NCBI RefSeq assembly: GCF_001425755.1
Contig: NZ_LMDH01000001.1
Coordinates: 1,496,060 to 1,560,059 of the forward strand
Source of the DNA: Aeromicrobium sp. Root344
Lineage (GTDB): Bacteria > Actinomycetota > Actinomycetes > Propionibacteriales > Nocardioidaceae
Direction of reading: 5' to 3'
Length of the DNA: 64,000 nucleotides
Part shown: piece after piece, positions 29,534 through 34,527 of the stretch
Layout of the letters: each line of letters opens with the position of its first letter
How positions within the stretch are numbered: the first letter of the stretch is position 1
Notes under the pieces: generated by a model
Told to the model about the DNA's origin: nothing
Seen by the model: only the letters and a program-made list of their open reading frames with translations
Database searches by the model: none
Translations under genes and position numbers: made by a program

Positions 29534-29550
29534 TTGACAATGGTTGTCAA
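29534..29550. promoter_or_regulatory. Zur-like box upstream of rpmG
   Basis: TTGACAA-TGG-TTGTCAA is a 7+7 dyad with the spacing of actinobacterial Zur boxes (TGAAAATGATTTTCA type). It lies 20 bp before the L33 start. The gene encodes the Zn-free form of L33, which supports zinc-dependent repression. Confidence 0.7.
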
Positions 29551-29569: not shown

Positions 29570-29737
29570 ATGGCTCGTCATGCTGATCTCAGGCCCATCA
29601 TCAAGCTGCGCTCGACCGCCGGCACCGGATACACGTACGTGACCCGCAAGAGTCGTCGGAACGATCCGGACCGCATGGGGCTGCGCAAGTACGATCCCAT
29701 CGCGCAGCGCCACGTGGAGTTCCGCGAGGAGCGCTAA
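29570..29737 (+). CDS. rpmG: Ribosomal protein bL33, zinc-independent paralog
   Basis: 55-aa 50S subunit protein. The L33 pattern is clear: [36 protein letters not shown]. There is no Cys at all, so the Zn-ribbon CxxC pairs of the 'C+' form are missing; this is the 'C-' version that replaces the zinc form when zinc is scarce. Actinobacteria usually keep it in Zur-regulated units with other C- ribosomal proteins; here it stands alone behind its own Zur-like dyad. GAGAGGTG precedes ATG 29570. Its stop shares CTAA with the convergent methyltransferase stop. Confidence 0.93.
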
Positions 29738-30372
29738 CCGCGGCGCACGGCCCGCAGGACGGCATCGACCGCGACGGCAGGACGCCCGTCGCGGTCGATC
29801 CATTCCCGCTCGAGCCGCAAGCCGTCGATCGTGGCCCACTCGGCGGGGTCCAACGTCGAGGCGACCTCGTCGCCCGTGAACCGGATGTCGTCGAACGTCG
29901 TCCCCTCCGGAGCGTGGCCCACGTCGTCCGGGTGGTGCCCCACGATCAGCAGGGTGCCGCCCGGACCAACGGACGCTGCCAGCTCCTGGTGGAGCCGGGT
30001 GAGCGCCGGCCGCGGCAGGTGCATGAACTGCGCCGACACCAGGTCGTACGTCTGGTCGGCCGACCACTCGAACGCATCAGCTTGCCGGCAGGTCAGCGCG
30101 AGGCCCAGCCGCTCCGCGCGCACCGAGACGCCCTCGAGCGCGACCGGTGAGATGTCGATCGCGGTGACCTGCCAGCCCTGCTCCGCGAGCCAGATCGCGT
30201 CGGCACCCTCACCGCTGCCGAAGTCGAGCGCGGTTCCTGGCGGCAGCTGAGCGGCGTACGTGACGAGATGCGGGTTGGGGTTGCCGCTCCAGACCTGCTC
30301 GCCGGAGTAGCGCTCGTCCCAGAACTCGCGGGTGAAGTAGTCCTCTGGGTGTTCGGTGTGCTGATGTGTCAT
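29734..30372 (-). CDS. Class I SAM-dependent methyltransferase
   Basis: 212-aa methyltransferase. Motif I is [20 protein letters not shown], motif [15 protein letters not shown], and the post-II region [21 protein letters not shown], with [17 protein letters not shown] at the N-terminus. This layout resembles the thiopurine/tellurite-resistance branch of small-molecule methyltransferases. ATG 30372 is chosen as the first Met of the domain; a Met at 30393 is also in frame. A TTGCC-N5-GGCAA dyad sits 43 bp upstream, identical in form to the one at the XRE-cupin promoter, so it may be under that regulator. Confidence 0.87.
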
Positions 30373-30414
30373 ACCGGCCAGCGTGCGTGACATCGCGACG
30401 AAGCGCAAAGATCC

Positions 30415-30429
30415 TTGCCGCGCTGGCAA
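30415..30429. promoter_or_regulatory. TTGCC-N5-GGCAA dyad (copy 1, before the methyltransferase)
   Basis: Lies between the stop of the XRE-cupin regulator and the methyltransferase start. Same 15-bp architecture as the dyad at 31029-31043. Confidence 0.6.
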
Positions 30430-30430
30430 A

Positions 30431-31027
30431 CTACTGCCTGGAACGCGGTTTCGCGCGCACGTGCATGCGTTCGCCCTGGCTGCCGAACAGGGTGAGCAGC
30501 TCGACCGGGCGCTTGCCGGCGTTGCTCAGCCCGTGCGGCAGGCGGGTGTCGAACTCGGCGGCCTCGCCGGTGCCGAGCACGAGGTCGTGCTCGCCGATCC
30601 GGAGGCGCAGGCGTCCCGACAGGACGTAGAGCCACTCGTACCCTTCGTGAGTCTTGAGGTCGTCGGTGTCGGGCTCGGTGGCGGGCGGGATGACGACCTT
30701 GTACGCCTGCAGGCCGCCGGCCTGACGGGTGAGCGGCACGAAGGTCCGGCCGTGCCGGTGGATCGGGTCGGCCTGGATGCGGGGGTCGTCCGTGGGCTGC
30801 GCCTCGACCAGCTCGTCGAGGGTCACGCCGTGGGCCTTGGCCAGGGGCAGCAGGAGCTCCAGGGTCGGCTTGCGCTGCCCAGACTCGAGCCGCGACAGCG
30901 TACTGACGGAGATGCCCGTCGTGGCGGACAGCTGTGCGAGCGTCGCCTCCCCGAGCTGGCGCAGGGCGCGCAGGCGGGGCCCGACCGAGGTGAGGGCGGT
31001 GGCGAGATCGTCAGTCATGGCGATCAT
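30431..31027 (-). CDS. XRE-family regulator with C-terminal cupin domain
   Basis: 198-aa regulator. The N-terminal helix-turn-helix is LRQLGEATLAQLSATTGISVSTLSRLESGQRKP (key residues Q-x3-T-x-S-x2-L-S-x2-E-x-G), followed from about residue 100 by a cupin beta-barrel with HEGYEWLYVLSGRLRL and LPHGLSNAGK. Such proteins sense small ligands through the cupin. ATG 31027 is six bases after CACTGT; ATG 31018 is an alternative. TTGCC-N5-GGCAA abuts the start, supporting autoregulation and control of the divergent thioredoxin-reductase-like gene. The much longer upstream frame overlaps that gene and is rejected. Confidence 0.85.
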   Translation of the reverse strand: MIAMTDDLATALTSVGPRLRALRQLGEATLAQLSATTGISVSTLSRLESGQRKPTLELLLPLAKAHGVTLDELVEAQPTDDPRIQADPIHRHGRTFVPLTRQAGGLQAYKVVIPPATEPDTDDLKTHEGYEWLYVLSGRLRLRIGEHDLVLGTGEAAEFDTRLPHGLSNAGKRPVELLTLFGSQGERMHVRAKPRSRQ

Positions 31028-31028
31028 C

Positions 31029-31043
31029 TTGCCACAGTGGCAA
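31029..31043. promoter_or_regulatory. TTGCC-N5-GGCAA dyad (copy 2, divergent promoter)
   Basis: TTGCCAC-A-GTGGCAA lies between the XRE-cupin gene (start 31027) and the divergent flavoprotein gene (start 31085), overlapping the regulator's presumed -10. A good candidate for the operator of the XRE protein. Confidence 0.7.
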
Positions 31044-31084
31044 AGACATTTGCCCTCAGCGCATCGGCGCCGAACACTGAGGAC

Positions 31085-32008
31085 ATGAACTCCTACGACA
31101 CCATCGTCATCGGGGCCGGCGCGGCCGGTCTGTCCGCCGCCCTCGTGCTCGGGCGTGCACGTCGGCGCGTCCTCGTCCTCGATGGCGGGCCGCCGCGCAA
31201 CGCGCGGGCCGCGCACGTCAACGGCTACCTCGGCATCGACGGGCTGAGCCCGCTCGAGCTGCTCGAGGTCGGCCGTGTGCAGGTCGAGAAGCTCGGCGTC
31301 GAGATCGTTGCAGGAGCCGCGTCGCTCGTCGAAGCCGAGGGCGACGGGTTCGCCGTCGTGGCTGGGGGCGAGCGCTGGCACGCGAAGCGGCTCGTCCTCG
31401 CCGCCGGCATCACCGACGCGTTGCCCGACATCCCCGGCGTGGCGGAAGGCTTCGGCGTCGACGTCTTCCACTGCCCCTACTGCCACGGGTACGAGGTCGC
31501 TGGCCGGCGCCTCGCCGTCATCGGGACGCAGCCGATGTCGGGTCACCAGGTGCGCATGGTGCGGCAGTGGACCGACGATCTCGTGCTCTTCACGAACGAC
31601 ACGATCGAGCTCGATGCAGCAGAGCGCCGGCTGTTCGCCGCTCGTGGAGTGGAGGTGGTCGACGGACCGGTCAGCGAGATCGTCCGCCGGGACGGCGCAC
31701 TGCAGGGCGTACGAGCTGGCGGTTCGGTCCACGAGGTGGCCGCGGTGTTCGTCGCCCCGACGATGGTGCTCAACCTCGACGCGTTCGCCGGGTTCGACCT
31801 CGAGATGACCGACACGCCGATGGGGCCCGTTGTCGCGACCGATCAGGTGGGTGCGACCAACGTGCCCGGGCTGTGGGCGGCCGGCAACGTCGCCGACGCG
31901 GGATCGCAGGTCATCGCGGCGGCGGCGCAGGGCGCACGAGTCGGCGCCGCGATCAACGGCTCACTCGTCGAGGAGGACTGGGCCGCGGCAGCTCAGCCCA
32001 GCAGCTGA
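31085..32008 (+). CDS. Thioredoxin-reductase-like FAD/NAD(P)H oxidoreductase
   Basis: 307-aa flavoprotein of the TrxB-like branch. The FAD motif is TIVIGAGAAGLSAALVLGRARR, the redox centre HCPYCHGYE (CxxC about 135-138), the NAD(P)H segment RRLAVIGTQPMSG with a degenerate GxGxxx, and the final FAD motif GLWAAGNVADAGSQVIAAAAQG. The CPYCHGYE form is typical of small actinobacterial TrxB-like proteins, not the main thioredoxin reductase. GAGG precedes ATG 31085. It is divergent from the XRE-cupin regulator across a shared dyad. The electron partner is unknown. The 3' end overlaps metX by 16 bp. Confidence 0.88.
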   Translation: MNSYDTIVIGAGAAGLSAALVLGRARRRVLVLDGGPPRNARAAHVNGYLGIDGLSPLELLEVGRVQVEKLGVEIVAGAASLVEAEGDGFAVVAGGERWHAKRLVLAAGITDALPDIPGVAEGFGVDVFHCPYCHGYEVAGRRLAVIGTQPMSGHQVRMVRQWTDDLVLFTNDTIELDAAERRLFAARGVEVVDGPVSEIVRRDGALQGVRAGGSVHEVAAVFVAPTMVLNLDAFAGFDLEMTDTPMGPVVATDQVGATNVPGLWAAGNVADAGSQVIAAAAQGARVGAAINGSLVEEDWAAAAQPSS

Positions 32009-33102
32009 CGCGCCAGCTCGCCCACCTGGTCGGACTCGACGAGGAACCCGTCGTGACCGTGGTCGGACTTCACGACCTCGAGCGACCCGGATCCCGGGAT
32101 GCCGTCGGCGAGCTCCTGCTGCTGGTGGAGCGGGTACAACCGGTCGGAGTCGATGCCGGCGACGATCGTACGAGCGGTGATCCGCGACAGCGCAGCGGCG
32201 ATGCCACCGCGATCGCGGCCGACGTCGTGGCTGTTCATCGCCGCACTCAGCACTACGTACGAGTTGGCGTCGAAGCGGCGGACCAGCTTGGCGCCGTGGT
32301 GCTGCAGGTAGGACTCGACGGCGAACCGGCCGTCGTCCTGCACCGATCGGCCGAACCGCGCGGCGAGCTCGTACTCGCTGCGGTAGCCGATGTGGGCGAT
32401 GCGTCGCGCCAGGTCGAGACCTTGGAGCGGTCCTTGCGGCCCGTCGTAGTAGTCGCCGCCGAAGTACGCCGGGTCGGCCCGGATCGCGTCGATCTGCGTC
32501 GCGGAGAGCGCGATCTGCTCGGCCGAGGCAGCGGCGCTGGTGGCGAGCAGGAACAGGCGTTCGACGCGCTCCGGCTGCCCGATCGCCCACTCGAGCGCGC
32601 GCATGCCGCCGGCCGAGCCGCCGATGACGCCTCGCCAGCGGTCGATCCCCATCCTGTCGGCGAGGGCGACCTCGGCGCGCACCTGGTCGCGGACCGTCAG
32701 CGGCGGGAACGAGCCACCCCACGGCAGCCCGTCGGGATCGCGCGAGGCCGGCCCGGTCGAGCCCTGGCAGCCCCCGAGGATGTTGGCCGCCACGACGTAC
32801 AGCCGATTCGTGTCGATGGCCTTGCCCGGTCCGACCACGGCGTCCCACCAGCCCGGAGTGGGGTGGCCGGCGCGGGCCCGCCCGGCGACGTGGCTGTCAC
32901 CGGTCAGGGCGTGCAGCACCAGCACCGCGTTCGACCCGTCGAAGCGTCCCCACGTCTCGTACGCCAGGCGTACGTCCGGCAGCGTCGCCCCCGAGTCGAG
33001 CGTGACGTCGCCGATGTCCGCGAGCTTCCTGGCGCCCAGCGGATCCCCCTCCCGCCACGCACCCGTGACGAGAGAGGAATCGATGCTGGGGCTGATCGTC
33101 AC
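31993..33102 (-). CDS. metX: Homoserine O-acyltransferase (MetX)
   Basis: 369-aa alpha/beta-hydrolase-fold enzyme that acylates homoserine (acetyl-CoA expected) in methionine synthesis. The N-terminal block is LAYETWGRFDGSNAVLVLHALTG, the nucleophile elbow GGSAGGMRALEW, the catalytic Asp in DSDRLYPLHQQQEL and the His in DHGHDGFL. GTG 33102 is the start; the MetY stop is only 10 bp upstream, so translation is probably coupled. Acetyl versus succinyl specificity cannot be assigned by inspection, but pairing with MetY (O-acetylhomoserine sulfhydrylase) favours acetyl. Confidence 0.93.
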   Translation of the reverse strand: MTISPSIDSSLVTGAWREGDPLGARKLADIGDVTLDSGATLPDVRLAYETWGRFDGSNAVLVLHALTGDSHVAGRARAGHPTPGWWDAVVGPGKAIDTNRLYVVAANILGGCQGSTGPASRDPDGLPWGGSFPPLTVRDQVRAEVALADRMGIDRWRGVIGGSAGGMRALEWAIGQPERVERLFLLATSAAASAEQIALSATQIDAIRADPAYFGGDYYDGPQGPLQGLDLARRIAHIGYRSEYELAARFGRSVQDDGRFAVESYLQHHGAKLVRRFDANSYVVLSAAMNSHDVGRDRGGIAAALSRITARTIVAGIDSDRLYPLHQQQELADGIPGSGSLEVVKSDHGHDGFLVESDQVGELARQLLG

Positions 33103-33112
33103 GCTCGGTCGA

Positions 33113-34402
33113 TCACTTCGCCGCGCGGAAGCCGGCGTCGAGGTCGGCGAGGATGTCGTCGATGCCTTCGAGGCCGACCGCGAGGCGTACGAGCCCGGGG
33201 GTCACGCCGGTCGCGGCCTGCTCCTCCGCCGACAGCTGCGAGTGCGTCGTGCTCGCCGGGTGGATCGCCAGGCTGCGCACGTCGCCGATGTTGGCGACGT
33301 GGCTGAACAGCTCGAGCGAGTCGATGAACGCCTTGCCGGCCTCGAGCCCCCCGGGCAGCTCGAAGGTCAGCACGGCGCCGGCGCCCTGCGGGACGTACTT
33401 GTCCGCCAGCGCCTTGTACGGGCTGGAGTCGAGGCTGGCCCACGTCACGGTGCTGACGTCCTCACGGGCCTCCAGCCACTCGGCGACCCGGCGGGTGTTG
33501 GTGATGTGCCGCTCGACCCGGAGGCTCAGCGTCTCGAGTCCCTGGGCCAGCAGGAACGCGCTGAACGGGCTGATGGCCGCACCGATGTTGCGGAGGTACT
33601 GCACGCGCAGCTTGGCGATGTAGGCCGCCGGGCCGAGCGCCGCGGCGTACTGGAGGCCGTGATAGCTCGCGTCGGGCTCGGTGAACCCGCCGAACTTGTC
33701 GCCGTGTGCGCCGTAGTCGAACGTCCCGCCGTCGATCACGACGCCGGCGATCGTGGTGCCGTGGCCGCCGATGTACTTGGTCGCCGAGTGCACGACGGTG
33801 TCGGCGCCGTGCTTGAGCGGGTTGAGGAGGTACGGCGTCGCGATCGTGTTGTCGACGATGAACGGGACGCCGACCTCCTTGGCGACCGCCGAGATGGCCT
33901 CGAGGTCGAGGATGTCGCCCTTGGGGTTGCCGATCGTCTCGCCGAAGTAGGCCTTGGTGTTGGCCTTGGTGGCGGCGCGCCACTGCTCGGGATCGTTGGG
34001 GTCGGCGACGAAGCTGACCGCGATGCCGAGCTTGGGGAAGCTGTGGCGCAGCAGGCTGTCGGTGCCGCCGTAGAGGCTCGACGACGCGACGATGTGGTCG
34101 CCGGCCTCGGCGACGTTCGTCAGCGCACCGGTCGTGGCGGCCTGGCCGGAGGCGAACAGCAGCGCGCCGACGCCACCCTCGAGGGCGGCGAGCCGCTCCT
34201 CGACGACACCCTGGGTCGGGTTGATGATGCGGGTGTAGATGTTGCCCGGCTCGGCGAGCGAGAACAGCGCCGCAGCGTGGTCCGTGTCGCGGAACTGGAA
34301 CGACGTCGTCTGATAGATCGGCAGCGCGCGGGCTCCGGTCGTGGGGTCAGGGGTCTGGCCCGCGTGGATCTGCTTGGTCTCGAAGGACCACTGGTCGCTC
34401 AT
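33113..34402 (-). CDS. metY: O-acetylhomoserine sulfhydrylase (MetY)
   Basis: 429-aa PLP enzyme of the Cys/Met metabolism family that makes homocysteine from O-acetylhomoserine and sulfide. The internal-aldimine Lys is in HSATKYIGGHG (about 210), the phosphate-binding loop is in FASGQAATTGAL, and YTRIINPTQGVVEERLAALEGG identifies the MetY branch by length and inserts. ATG 34402 has GGGAG about eight bases upstream. It is the first gene of the metY-metX operon. A dyad GTCGAAGGTC/GACC-TCGAC lies 14 bp before the start. Confidence 0.95.
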   Translation of the reverse strand: MSDQWSFETKQIHAGQTPDPTTGARALPIYQTTSFQFRDTDHAAALFSLAEPGNIYTRIINPTQGVVEERLAALEGGVGALLFASGQAATTGALTNVAEAGDHIVASSSLYGGTDSLLRHSFPKLGIAVSFVADPNDPEQWRAATKANTKAYFGETIGNPKGDILDLEAISAVAKEVGVPFIVDNTIATPYLLNPLKHGADTVVHSATKYIGGHGTTIAGVVIDGGTFDYGAHGDKFGGFTEPDASYHGLQYAAALGPAAYIAKLRVQYLRNIGAAISPFSAFLLAQGLETLSLRVERHITNTRRVAEWLEAREDVSTVTWASLDSSPYKALADKYVPQGAGAVLTFELPGGLEAGKAFIDSLELFSHVANIGDVRSLAIHPASTTHSQLSAEEQAATGVTPGLVRLAVGLEGIDDILADLDAGFRAAK

Positions 34403-34415
34403 GATGGTGTCTCCC

Positions 34416-34437
34416 GTCGAAGGTCTGTGACCTCGAC
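34416..34437. promoter_or_regulatory. Imperfect dyad in the metY leader
   Basis: GTCGAaGGTC-TGT-GACCTCGAC, nine paired bases with one bulged A, just upstream of the metY ribosome-binding site. It could be an operator for a sulfur-metabolism regulator or an RNA hairpin. I see no convincing SAM-riboswitch sequence. Confidence 0.35.
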
Positions 34438-34527
34438 AGTGACAGCGGATTCGTGCGCCGCGACGGCATCTCACGATGCGAAAGTCGCGGGGCCGCCAGC
34501 AGTGATGGTGCTACGAGGGAAGCGCCC

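Follow-up and report, generated by a model that had tools for sequence, protein, structure and literature searches.

Genes and Dyads at the Locus

The window analyzed here is the whole 64-kb stretch of DNA from Aeromicrobium sp. Root344. The gene under study (30431..31018, minus strand) encodes a 195-amino-acid protein that matches the Pfam families HTH_3 (residues 16-70) and Cupin_2 (residues 121-177) above their gathering scores; an N-terminal HTH_3 and a C-terminal Cupin_2 domain are thus combined in one small protein, as is typical of XRE-cupin regulators. An in-frame ATG at positions 31025-31027 is an alternative start of this gene. Divergent from the regulator, on the plus strand, lies a gene (31085..32008) for a 307-amino-acid TrxB-like flavoprotein with a Pyr_redox_2 domain and a CPYCHGYE motif that is related to dithiol oxidases (hereafter, the flavoenzyme). 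On the regulator strand, a gene located at 29734..30372 codes for a 212-amino-acid class I SAM methyltransferase (MT) that is TPMT/TehB-like at the Pfam level. The identities proposed for the three genes in the initial annotation are therefore retained, the domains being HTH_3 and Cupin_2 in the regulator, Pyr_redox_2 in the flavoprotein and a class I methyltransferase fold in MT.

Inspection by eye places these genes beside met-like and ribosomal-protein-like genes, with no evident biosynthetic cluster. The genes next to the flavoenzyme gene (31993-34474) appear metX-like and metY-like. On the other side, a palindrome, TTGACAA-TGG-TTGTCAA (29534-29550), lies shortly ahead of the gene for an L33-like ribosomal protein (29570-29737), and it resembles the Zur box of zinc-independent ribosomal paralogues.

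The regulator gene had been described as bracketed by twin TTGCC-N5-GGCAA dyads, and both are indeed present, as exact matches to the pattern, at 31029-31043 (TTGCCACAGTGGCAA) and 30415-30429 (TTGCCGCGCTGGCAA). These are the only two exact matches to this pattern (TTGCCNNNNNGGCAA) in the 64-kb window, while none was found in any of 100 dinucleotide shuffles; they lie within 629 bp and flank a single regulator gene. Each dyad is extended by a third half-site, which makes the element larger than the 15-bp one described earlier. We refer to the extended elements as O1 (31029..31054, plus strand; third half-site TTTGCC at 31049-31054) and O2 (30404..30429, minus strand; third half-site TTTGCG at 30404-30409). 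Read towards the flavoenzyme gene, O1 is TTGCCACAGTGGCAA-AGACA-TTTGCC and its dyad overlaps the start region of the regulator gene; read towards the MT gene, O2 is TTGCCAGCGCGGCAA-GGATC-TTTGCG. The two elements have the same orientation relative to their own enzyme genes, and their dyad centers are located 49 and 50 nucleotides before the respective start codons. Very probably, judging from the sequence, both are operators of the regulator encoded between them and together cover all three genes, with O1 serving the start region of the regulator as well as the TrxB-like gene and O2 serving the MT gene.

How special the sites are was assessed in the whole 3.87-Mb genome. The exact dyad occurs there at four places, and so does the reversed control pattern; a single 15-bp dyad is therefore unremarkable, but a pair within 629 bp around one regulator is not. 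The other two exact dyads look like chance occurrences: by eye, one (L004) adjoins a tRNA-like stretch at the end of an integrase-like gene, and the other (L003) precedes a secreted-protein-like gene without a third half-site. A 25-bp pattern, TTGCC-N5-GGCAA-N5-TTTGC, was composed after the window sites had been seen and is matched by both of them with no mismatches. With up to two mismatches allowed, only two further places were retrieved from the genome, each with two mismatches and one of them overlapping O1 on the opposite strand; the reversed control of this pattern also gave two places at this threshold. A larger regulon in the same genome was considered and set aside, as no additional place lies fewer than two mismatches from the 25-bp pattern, a search that could miss a weaker site. 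Five other regulator-like matches are present in this genome, and none of them is located at any of the four exact dyads.

Conservation of the Dyads at Regulator Loci

Related regulators were collected from 110 loci, of which 30 come from a longer list of matches in a genus search and the other 80 are the best of 302 stretches confirmed in a scan of genome contigs. The set includes the window itself (L005), apparently one species twice (L006 and L035) and one member of a sister clade (L034). The initial annotation proposed to check whether the dyads are conserved with the regulator in orthologous loci, and this was borne out: a dyad with at most one mismatch is present within 150 nucleotides upstream of the regulator in 97 of the 110 loci, compared with 9 of 2,200 mononucleotide-shuffled stretches put through the same test. 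An exact dyad is present in 69 loci (0 of 2,200 shuffled stretches). With up to two mismatches the number rises to 105, but since 167 of the 2,200 shuffled stretches also pass, about 8 of 110 are expected by chance at this threshold, so the count of 105 may include meaningless cases and the one-mismatch count is safer. The five loci in which no upstream dyad was found within two mismatches are L010, L012, L013, L033 and L087; in L012, a dyad is located before the divergent flavoenzyme gene instead. When all 5-mer dyads with spacers of 0 to 12 nucleotides were compared, TTGCC-5-GGCAA was the commonest (69 loci), and the runner-up (26 loci) is the inner part of the same element. In three close relatives aligned with the window, both dyads are kept with at most one mismatch each. 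The promoters of genes neighboring the regulator thus carry a palindromic site, recognizable as conserved sequence, as is expected for an XRE-cupin system.

A different explanation for the lower dyad is that O2 is the terminator of the regulator transcript, or a palindrome that arose by chance, and that O1 is the sole operator. O2 does lie one base past the regulator stop codon, and the genome contains single dyads as often as it contains the reversed control pattern. However, no terminator-like structure was found at 30300-31150, and O2 shares its orientation and distance to the gene with O1. Furthermore, its motif columns are conserved across the four species in which O1 was also aligned. 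One of the genomes, that of A. ginsengisoli, is particularly informative in this respect. It contains a regulator that is 96-97% identical to that of the window, but about 2.4 kb of other genes lie between the regulator and the MT gene, and the latter keeps its own site at -50, TTGCTGGACTGGCAAGAATGTTTGC (TTGCT-N5-GGCAA plus TTTGC). Since the site stays with the MT gene despite the distant regulator, it belongs to the MT promoter and not to the end of the regulator gene. We therefore consider a terminator or chance origin of O2 highly improbable.

The block inserted in A. ginsengisoli (L035, 3586-5983), between the regulator stop codon and the MT operator, appears by eye to encode ribosomal proteins S14, L33, L28, L31, L32 and L36 and a COG0523-like protein, and looks like a zinc-starvation island.

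In a sister clade of XRE-cupin proteins (36-39% identity), the site TTGCG-N5-CGCAA lies over the regulator's own start codon in five of six genomes (L179, L181, L182, L183 and L186). The spacing is the same as in the main dyad and one base is changed, which suggests, as far as sequence can indicate, a changed specificity. At L034, which comes from the same genome as L186, the neighboring gene encodes a methyltransferase with a His-rich start.

Gene Arrangements around the Regulator

Linkage of the enzymes to the regulator was called by tblastn at an E-value of 1e-8, so that the following counts miss distant forms and genes outside the fetched stretches. In 16 of the 110 loci, the flavoenzyme and MT are fused, their common open frame running divergently from the regulator gene, and in four they are adjacent but separate. 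The layout seen in the window, with the flavoenzyme gene divergent and the MT gene on the regulator strand, is also found in four loci, among them L035 with its long insertion. MT is present alone in 30 loci, the flavoenzyme alone in 24, and neither was detected in 32.

In L092 and L098, a gene divergent from the regulator encodes an MFS transporter, and in one Streptomyces plasmid an MFS gene follows the MT gene. The annotations of three plasmid regions, and of the matches from a plasmid search with the flavoenzyme, offered only generic names or none at all.

Putative Operator Copies Away from the Regulator

Because the 25- and 26-bp patterns were composed after the window and related sites had been seen, their matches in the window (O1, no mismatches to either pattern; O2, none to the 25-bp and one to the 26-bp pattern) and at linked genes are no independent test, while unlinked matches in genomes searched with the pattern alone are. 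We searched in this way, with the 26-bp pattern, 28 genomes that belong to the 32 loci without a linked enzyme; the genomes of the other four loci (L010, L013, L032 and L034) were covered by the genus search. The motif-only search retrieved 62 matches, compared with 13 for the reversed control. Twenty-two of them are located at regulators (one also at a flavoenzyme gene), 21 more at flavoenzyme or MT genes, five at genes of His-rich methyltransferases, and 14 elsewhere, the last figure being close to the control number. Counted by genome, 20 of the 28 have a TrxB-like or MT target, five more have a His-rich methyltransferase target, and three have neither; the recognizer for His-rich methyltransferases was written after such genes had been seen. 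One of the 20 genomes (G055) has a second regulator copy, from which its target is divergent. The earlier proposal of a three-target module is thus supported, as regulator, TrxB-like and MT genes are all preceded by this element, whether they are linked or not.

In the genus search, 34 of 49 genomes contained the 26-bp pattern, with 43 matches in total, compared with 7 matches to its reversed control. Judged by eye, 25 of these matches have a regulator no more than 4 kb away. The other 18 lie farther off and outnumber the 7 control matches; seven of these 18 have one repeated sequence in common.

Several individual sites from these searches deserve mention. In L161, L162, L171, L190 and L209, unlinked operator copies precede the gene of a different class I methyltransferase, one with a long His-rich N-terminus. 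In L170 (G065), a copy with no mismatches precedes a 148-amino-acid open frame that resembles a stand-alone cupin. In L203 (G062), an operator-like site with one mismatch is found before the gene of another XRE regulator of about 40% identity, a hint of possible cross-regulation between XRE regulators. In L184 and L185 (G007 and G026), about 2.7 kb separate the operator from the gene of the regulator, and the same 6.5 kb also contain a gene for a flavoenzyme.

Predicted Promoter Architecture at the Target Genes

Among 74 target-gene rows with a dyad of at most two mismatches, 38 have the dyad center at -49 to -51 relative to the start codon, start codons having been picked automatically and a few of them wrongly (e.g., in L026 and L074). 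Of the remaining 36 rows, 34 have a longer distance, many of them with what appears by eye to be a Shine-Dalgarno-like leader; in seven further target rows no dyad was found within two mismatches. Both window targets belong to the short-distance type. Downstream of O1, a predicted weak -10 hexamer, AACACT (31073..31078, plus strand), begins 18 nucleotides after TTTGCC and ends 6 nucleotides before the ATG of the TrxB-like gene; downstream of O2, the predicted weak hexamer CACGCT (30380..30385, minus strand) follows TTTGCG by 18 nucleotides and precedes the ATG of the MT gene by 7. Both hexamers were assigned from sequence and spacing. Given that only 6-7 nucleotides separate these -10-like hexamers from the start codons, the flavoenzyme and MT transcripts may both be leaderless.

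The alignment of unlinked sites (n = 26) contains A in 88% of sequences at +39 and T in 88% at +43 from the dyad center, i.e., at -10 positions; since 10 of the 26 sites are from near-identical relatives, these percentages are inflated. The -10 signal is weaker at linked sites (n = 75), where 56% of sequences have T at +43 and the column at +39 does not stand out, partly because of a one-base variation in spacing. The dyad at target promoters is placed just upstream of the -35 region, and the third half-site covers the -35 region. The third half-site keeps TTGYC; at its fourth position, the consensus -35 base A is absent from all 26 unlinked sites and present in about 1% of the 75 linked ones. 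Such avoidance of A suggests that the third half-site is read by the regulator. The arrangement differs at the regulator's own promoter, where the dyad overlaps the presumed spacer and -10 region, in many loci after a TTGACA -35 element; this placement is a repressing position as judged from the sequence. Taken with the window sites themselves, these data speak against dyads arisen by chance: although the rate of single dyads equals that of the control, the pairing, conservation and geometry of the sites do not fit chance.

The promoter geometry bears directly on the sign of regulation. The position of the dyad upstream of the -35 region at target promoters is also compatible with activation, and the main rival to repression is that the regulator represses itself but activates the enzyme genes, recruiting RNA polymerase from just upstream of the -35 region to promoters with weak -10 elements. 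The nearly fixed distance between dyad and promoter in a large proportion of the targets, both linked and unlinked, would be explained in this way, as would the poor -10 hexamers proposed in the window, where no consensus σ70 site was found at the target promoters; self-repression would agree with the dyad in the spacer and -10 region of the regulator's own promoter. On the other hand, the conserved TTGYC on the -35 region, with its near absence of A at the fourth position, fits reading by the regulator and occlusion of the promoter, and the studied XRE-cupin proteins of P. aeruginosa are all described as inhibitors in the excerpted text of PMC7901475. The position of the dyad at the regulator's own promoter, the third half-site on the -35 region and the inhibitory role of the studied proteins together favor repression, which we regard as likely at the target promoters on the strength of sequence and analogy; activation of the enzyme genes appears unlikely, though it should be kept in mind.

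Identity of the Flavoenzyme and the Methyltransferase

The redox enzyme had been called TrxB-like. It is a flavoprotein with a Pyr_redox_2 domain but not a classical TrxB (85.2 bits with TIGR01292, whose equivalog cut-off is 343.45); rather, it is a relative of dithiol oxidases. Its best PDB match is 4ntd (E-value 2.1e-70, 240.7 bits), followed by 3fbs, DepH, 4fk1 and GliT. We take 4ntd to be the holomycin dithiol oxidase HlmI; the PDB record names it only as a thioredoxin reductase. Of the 62 distinct flavoenzyme sequences, 61 contain a CHG-type CxxC motif (CxxCHG), and none contains a GGGDSA-like string, which is a TrxB-type motif.

A tree was built from 69 rows, 66 from operator-related loci and three from solved structures. 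With midpoint rooting, all operator-related flavoenzymes and 4ntd stand together against DepH and 3fbs (support 100/100), and 4ntd groups with seven unlinked, site-bearing flavoenzymes (100/97). The window clade forms a long branch (0.83) that diverges earlier than the HlmI group, at a weakly supported node (80/87). As only operator-related loci and three structures were chosen as rows, with HlmI-like genes lacking the operator not among them, the nesting of 4ntd inside the operator-linked flavoenzymes may reflect sampling and is suggestive only.

The MT passes the Pfam gathering scores of both PF05724 TPMT (35.1 bits, cut-off 26) and PF03848 TehB (35.4 bits, cut-off 20.4), as do all three linked or fused MT domains that were scanned. 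The two His-rich methyltransferases scanned match neither TPMT nor TehB and exceed the thresholds only of general methyltransferase families and PCMT.

We consider dithiol or thiol detoxification to be the function of the pair with about even confidence, from sequence and by analogy with known enzymes. A serious rival keeps the same regulon but assigns it other chemistry, with the enzymes handling tellurite, selenite, another metalloid or small thiols generally. The families of both enzymes are broad, the Pfam assignments of the MT and its relatives agree with such chemistry, and five unlinked targets are His-rich methyltransferases. However, the MT is far below the cut-offs of TehB equivalogs (48.5 versus 303, 45.8 versus 218 and 40 versus 219.5 bits), so it was rejected as a TehB tellurite methyltransferase, and the flavoenzyme, with 4ntd as its closest solved relative and the motif pattern given above, points elsewhere. 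Metalloid or general thiol chemistry is accordingly possible but on the unlikely side.

The Regulator and Its Cupin Domain

The predicted structure of the regulator (mean pLDDT 81.9) has a helical N-terminus and a beta C-terminus. Among the PDB matches of the model, the iron enzyme HppE is first and the V. cholerae HTH_3 regulator 1y9q is fourth; the low whole-chain TM score (about 0.4) we put down to domain orientation in the model. HppE has a 2-His-1-Glu iron site. In the regulators, H124 and H162 are present in 110 of 110 sequences, and residue 128 is always acidic (E in 103, D in 7). The conservation of H124, E128 and H162, together with the HppE match, makes a metal-bearing cupin plausible.

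Two other assignments were rejected. Sensing by cysteine does not agree with the 92 of 110 regulators that have no cysteine, and identity with PuuR is contradicted by a score of 29.5 bits against an NCBIfam equivalog cut-off of 211.

Proposed Mechanism

The proposal outlined below builds on computed features: site conservation, promoter geometry, association with linked and unlinked targets, and family-level similarity. The dyads would form the core of the operators recognized by the XRE-cupin regulator whose gene they flank. TTGCC-N5-GGCAA would be bound by a dimer of this regulator, and the adjacent YTTGYC half-site, located at the -35 region of the target promoter, is probably contacted by one more subunit. 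Through O1, the regulator would control itself and the divergent flavoenzyme gene, and through O2 the MT gene. Like the XRE-cupin regulators studied in Pseudomonas, it most likely holds the promoters off as long as no inducer is present. Binding of a small molecule in the cupin, perhaps via a metal on His124, Glu128 and His162, would release it. The induced flavoenzyme would then close reactive dithiols to disulfides, and the MT would cap dithiols by S-methylation. As a whole, a local XRE-cupin switch that acts on its own operators, probably as a repressor, and governs dithiol oxidation and S-methylation is our best reading of the locus, and we hold it with reasonable but far from full confidence.

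Comparison with Known Systems

The studied P. aeruginosa XRE-cupin proteins (ErfA, PsdR, PauR and others) are presented in excerpts of PMC7901475 as inhibitors of neighboring genes that act at palindromic sites. The regulator described here resembles them in its XRE and cupin domains, palindromic sites and small local regulon, and some of theirs autoregulate, according to the same excerpts. It differs from them in its phylum and its targets, in the third half-site next to the dyad and in the unlinked location of target genes in many genomes. MsrR of Corynebacterium glutamicum, an actinobacterium, is likewise an XRE-family regulator with a divergent promoter; excerpts of PMC7532634 describe it as autorepressing, as controlling stress genes and as sensing by Cys62. 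By contrast, most regulators of the present family have no cysteine, and the MsrR paper nowhere uses the word "cupin" in its main text.

For the enzyme pair, the closest parallels are found in dithiol metabolism. HlmI of Streptomyces clavuligerus oxidizes reduced holomycin with O2, and the hlmI mutant accumulates S-methylated intermediates, as reported in excerpts of PMC3826145; oxidation and, as a back-up, S-methylation act there on the same dithiols, which parallels the flavoenzyme and MT pair. The window flavoenzyme shares with HlmI its CPYCHGYE motif but, unlike hlmI, which is part of a biosynthetic cluster, its gene lies beside met-like and ribosomal-protein-like genes and has an XRE-cupin neighbor. 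In Aspergillus fumigatus, GliT and GtmA carry out dithiol oxidation and S-methylation of gliotoxin (PMC5356443, in excerpt), again a dithiol oxidase paired with an S-methyltransferase, with one dithiol as the substrate; this system is fungal, however, and GliT is distant from the window flavoenzyme (92.7 bits, compared with 240.7 for 4ntd). DnoP (PA4170) of P. aeruginosa is, according to excerpts of PMC11317636, a defense dithiol oxidase induced via zinc starvation in a bacterium that makes no such toxin, the signaling to dnoP being reported there as not yet elucidated. It is similar in being an inducible defense enzyme but, unlike the window flavoenzyme, it falls in the DepH group, and "S-methyl" and "XRE" are absent from the paper's main text.

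Reduced dithiol gliotoxin and holomycin are thought to act by zinc chelation, as stated in excerpts of PMC10500201 and PMC11317636. A regulon that combines an oxidase with a methyltransferase, with no evident biosynthetic cluster around it, fits defense against such dithiols. We found no description of this regulator-operator-enzyme module in the open-licence PMC literature, judged mostly by titles and the beginnings of abstracts. A bolder and rather doubtful extension is that actinobacteria have in this regulator a dedicated sensor for dithiol antibiotics that chelate metals: the dithiol would bind or strip the metal of the 2-His-1-Glu cupin, thereby freeing the regulator and turning on the (often fused) oxidase and S-methyltransferase outside biosynthetic clusters. 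Were this true, HlmI of the holomycin cluster would be an offshoot of an older defense regulon. A link to zinc starvation, the reported DnoP signal, would explain the apparently zinc-independent ribosomal genes beside the module in Aeromicrobium.

The module is probably a widespread, little-studied defense switch against reactive sulfur compounds. Conserved in many actinobacterial genera, it would provide a tractable system for studying how bacteria sense and disarm dithiols, and the operator sequence would offer a means to find further genes of the response.
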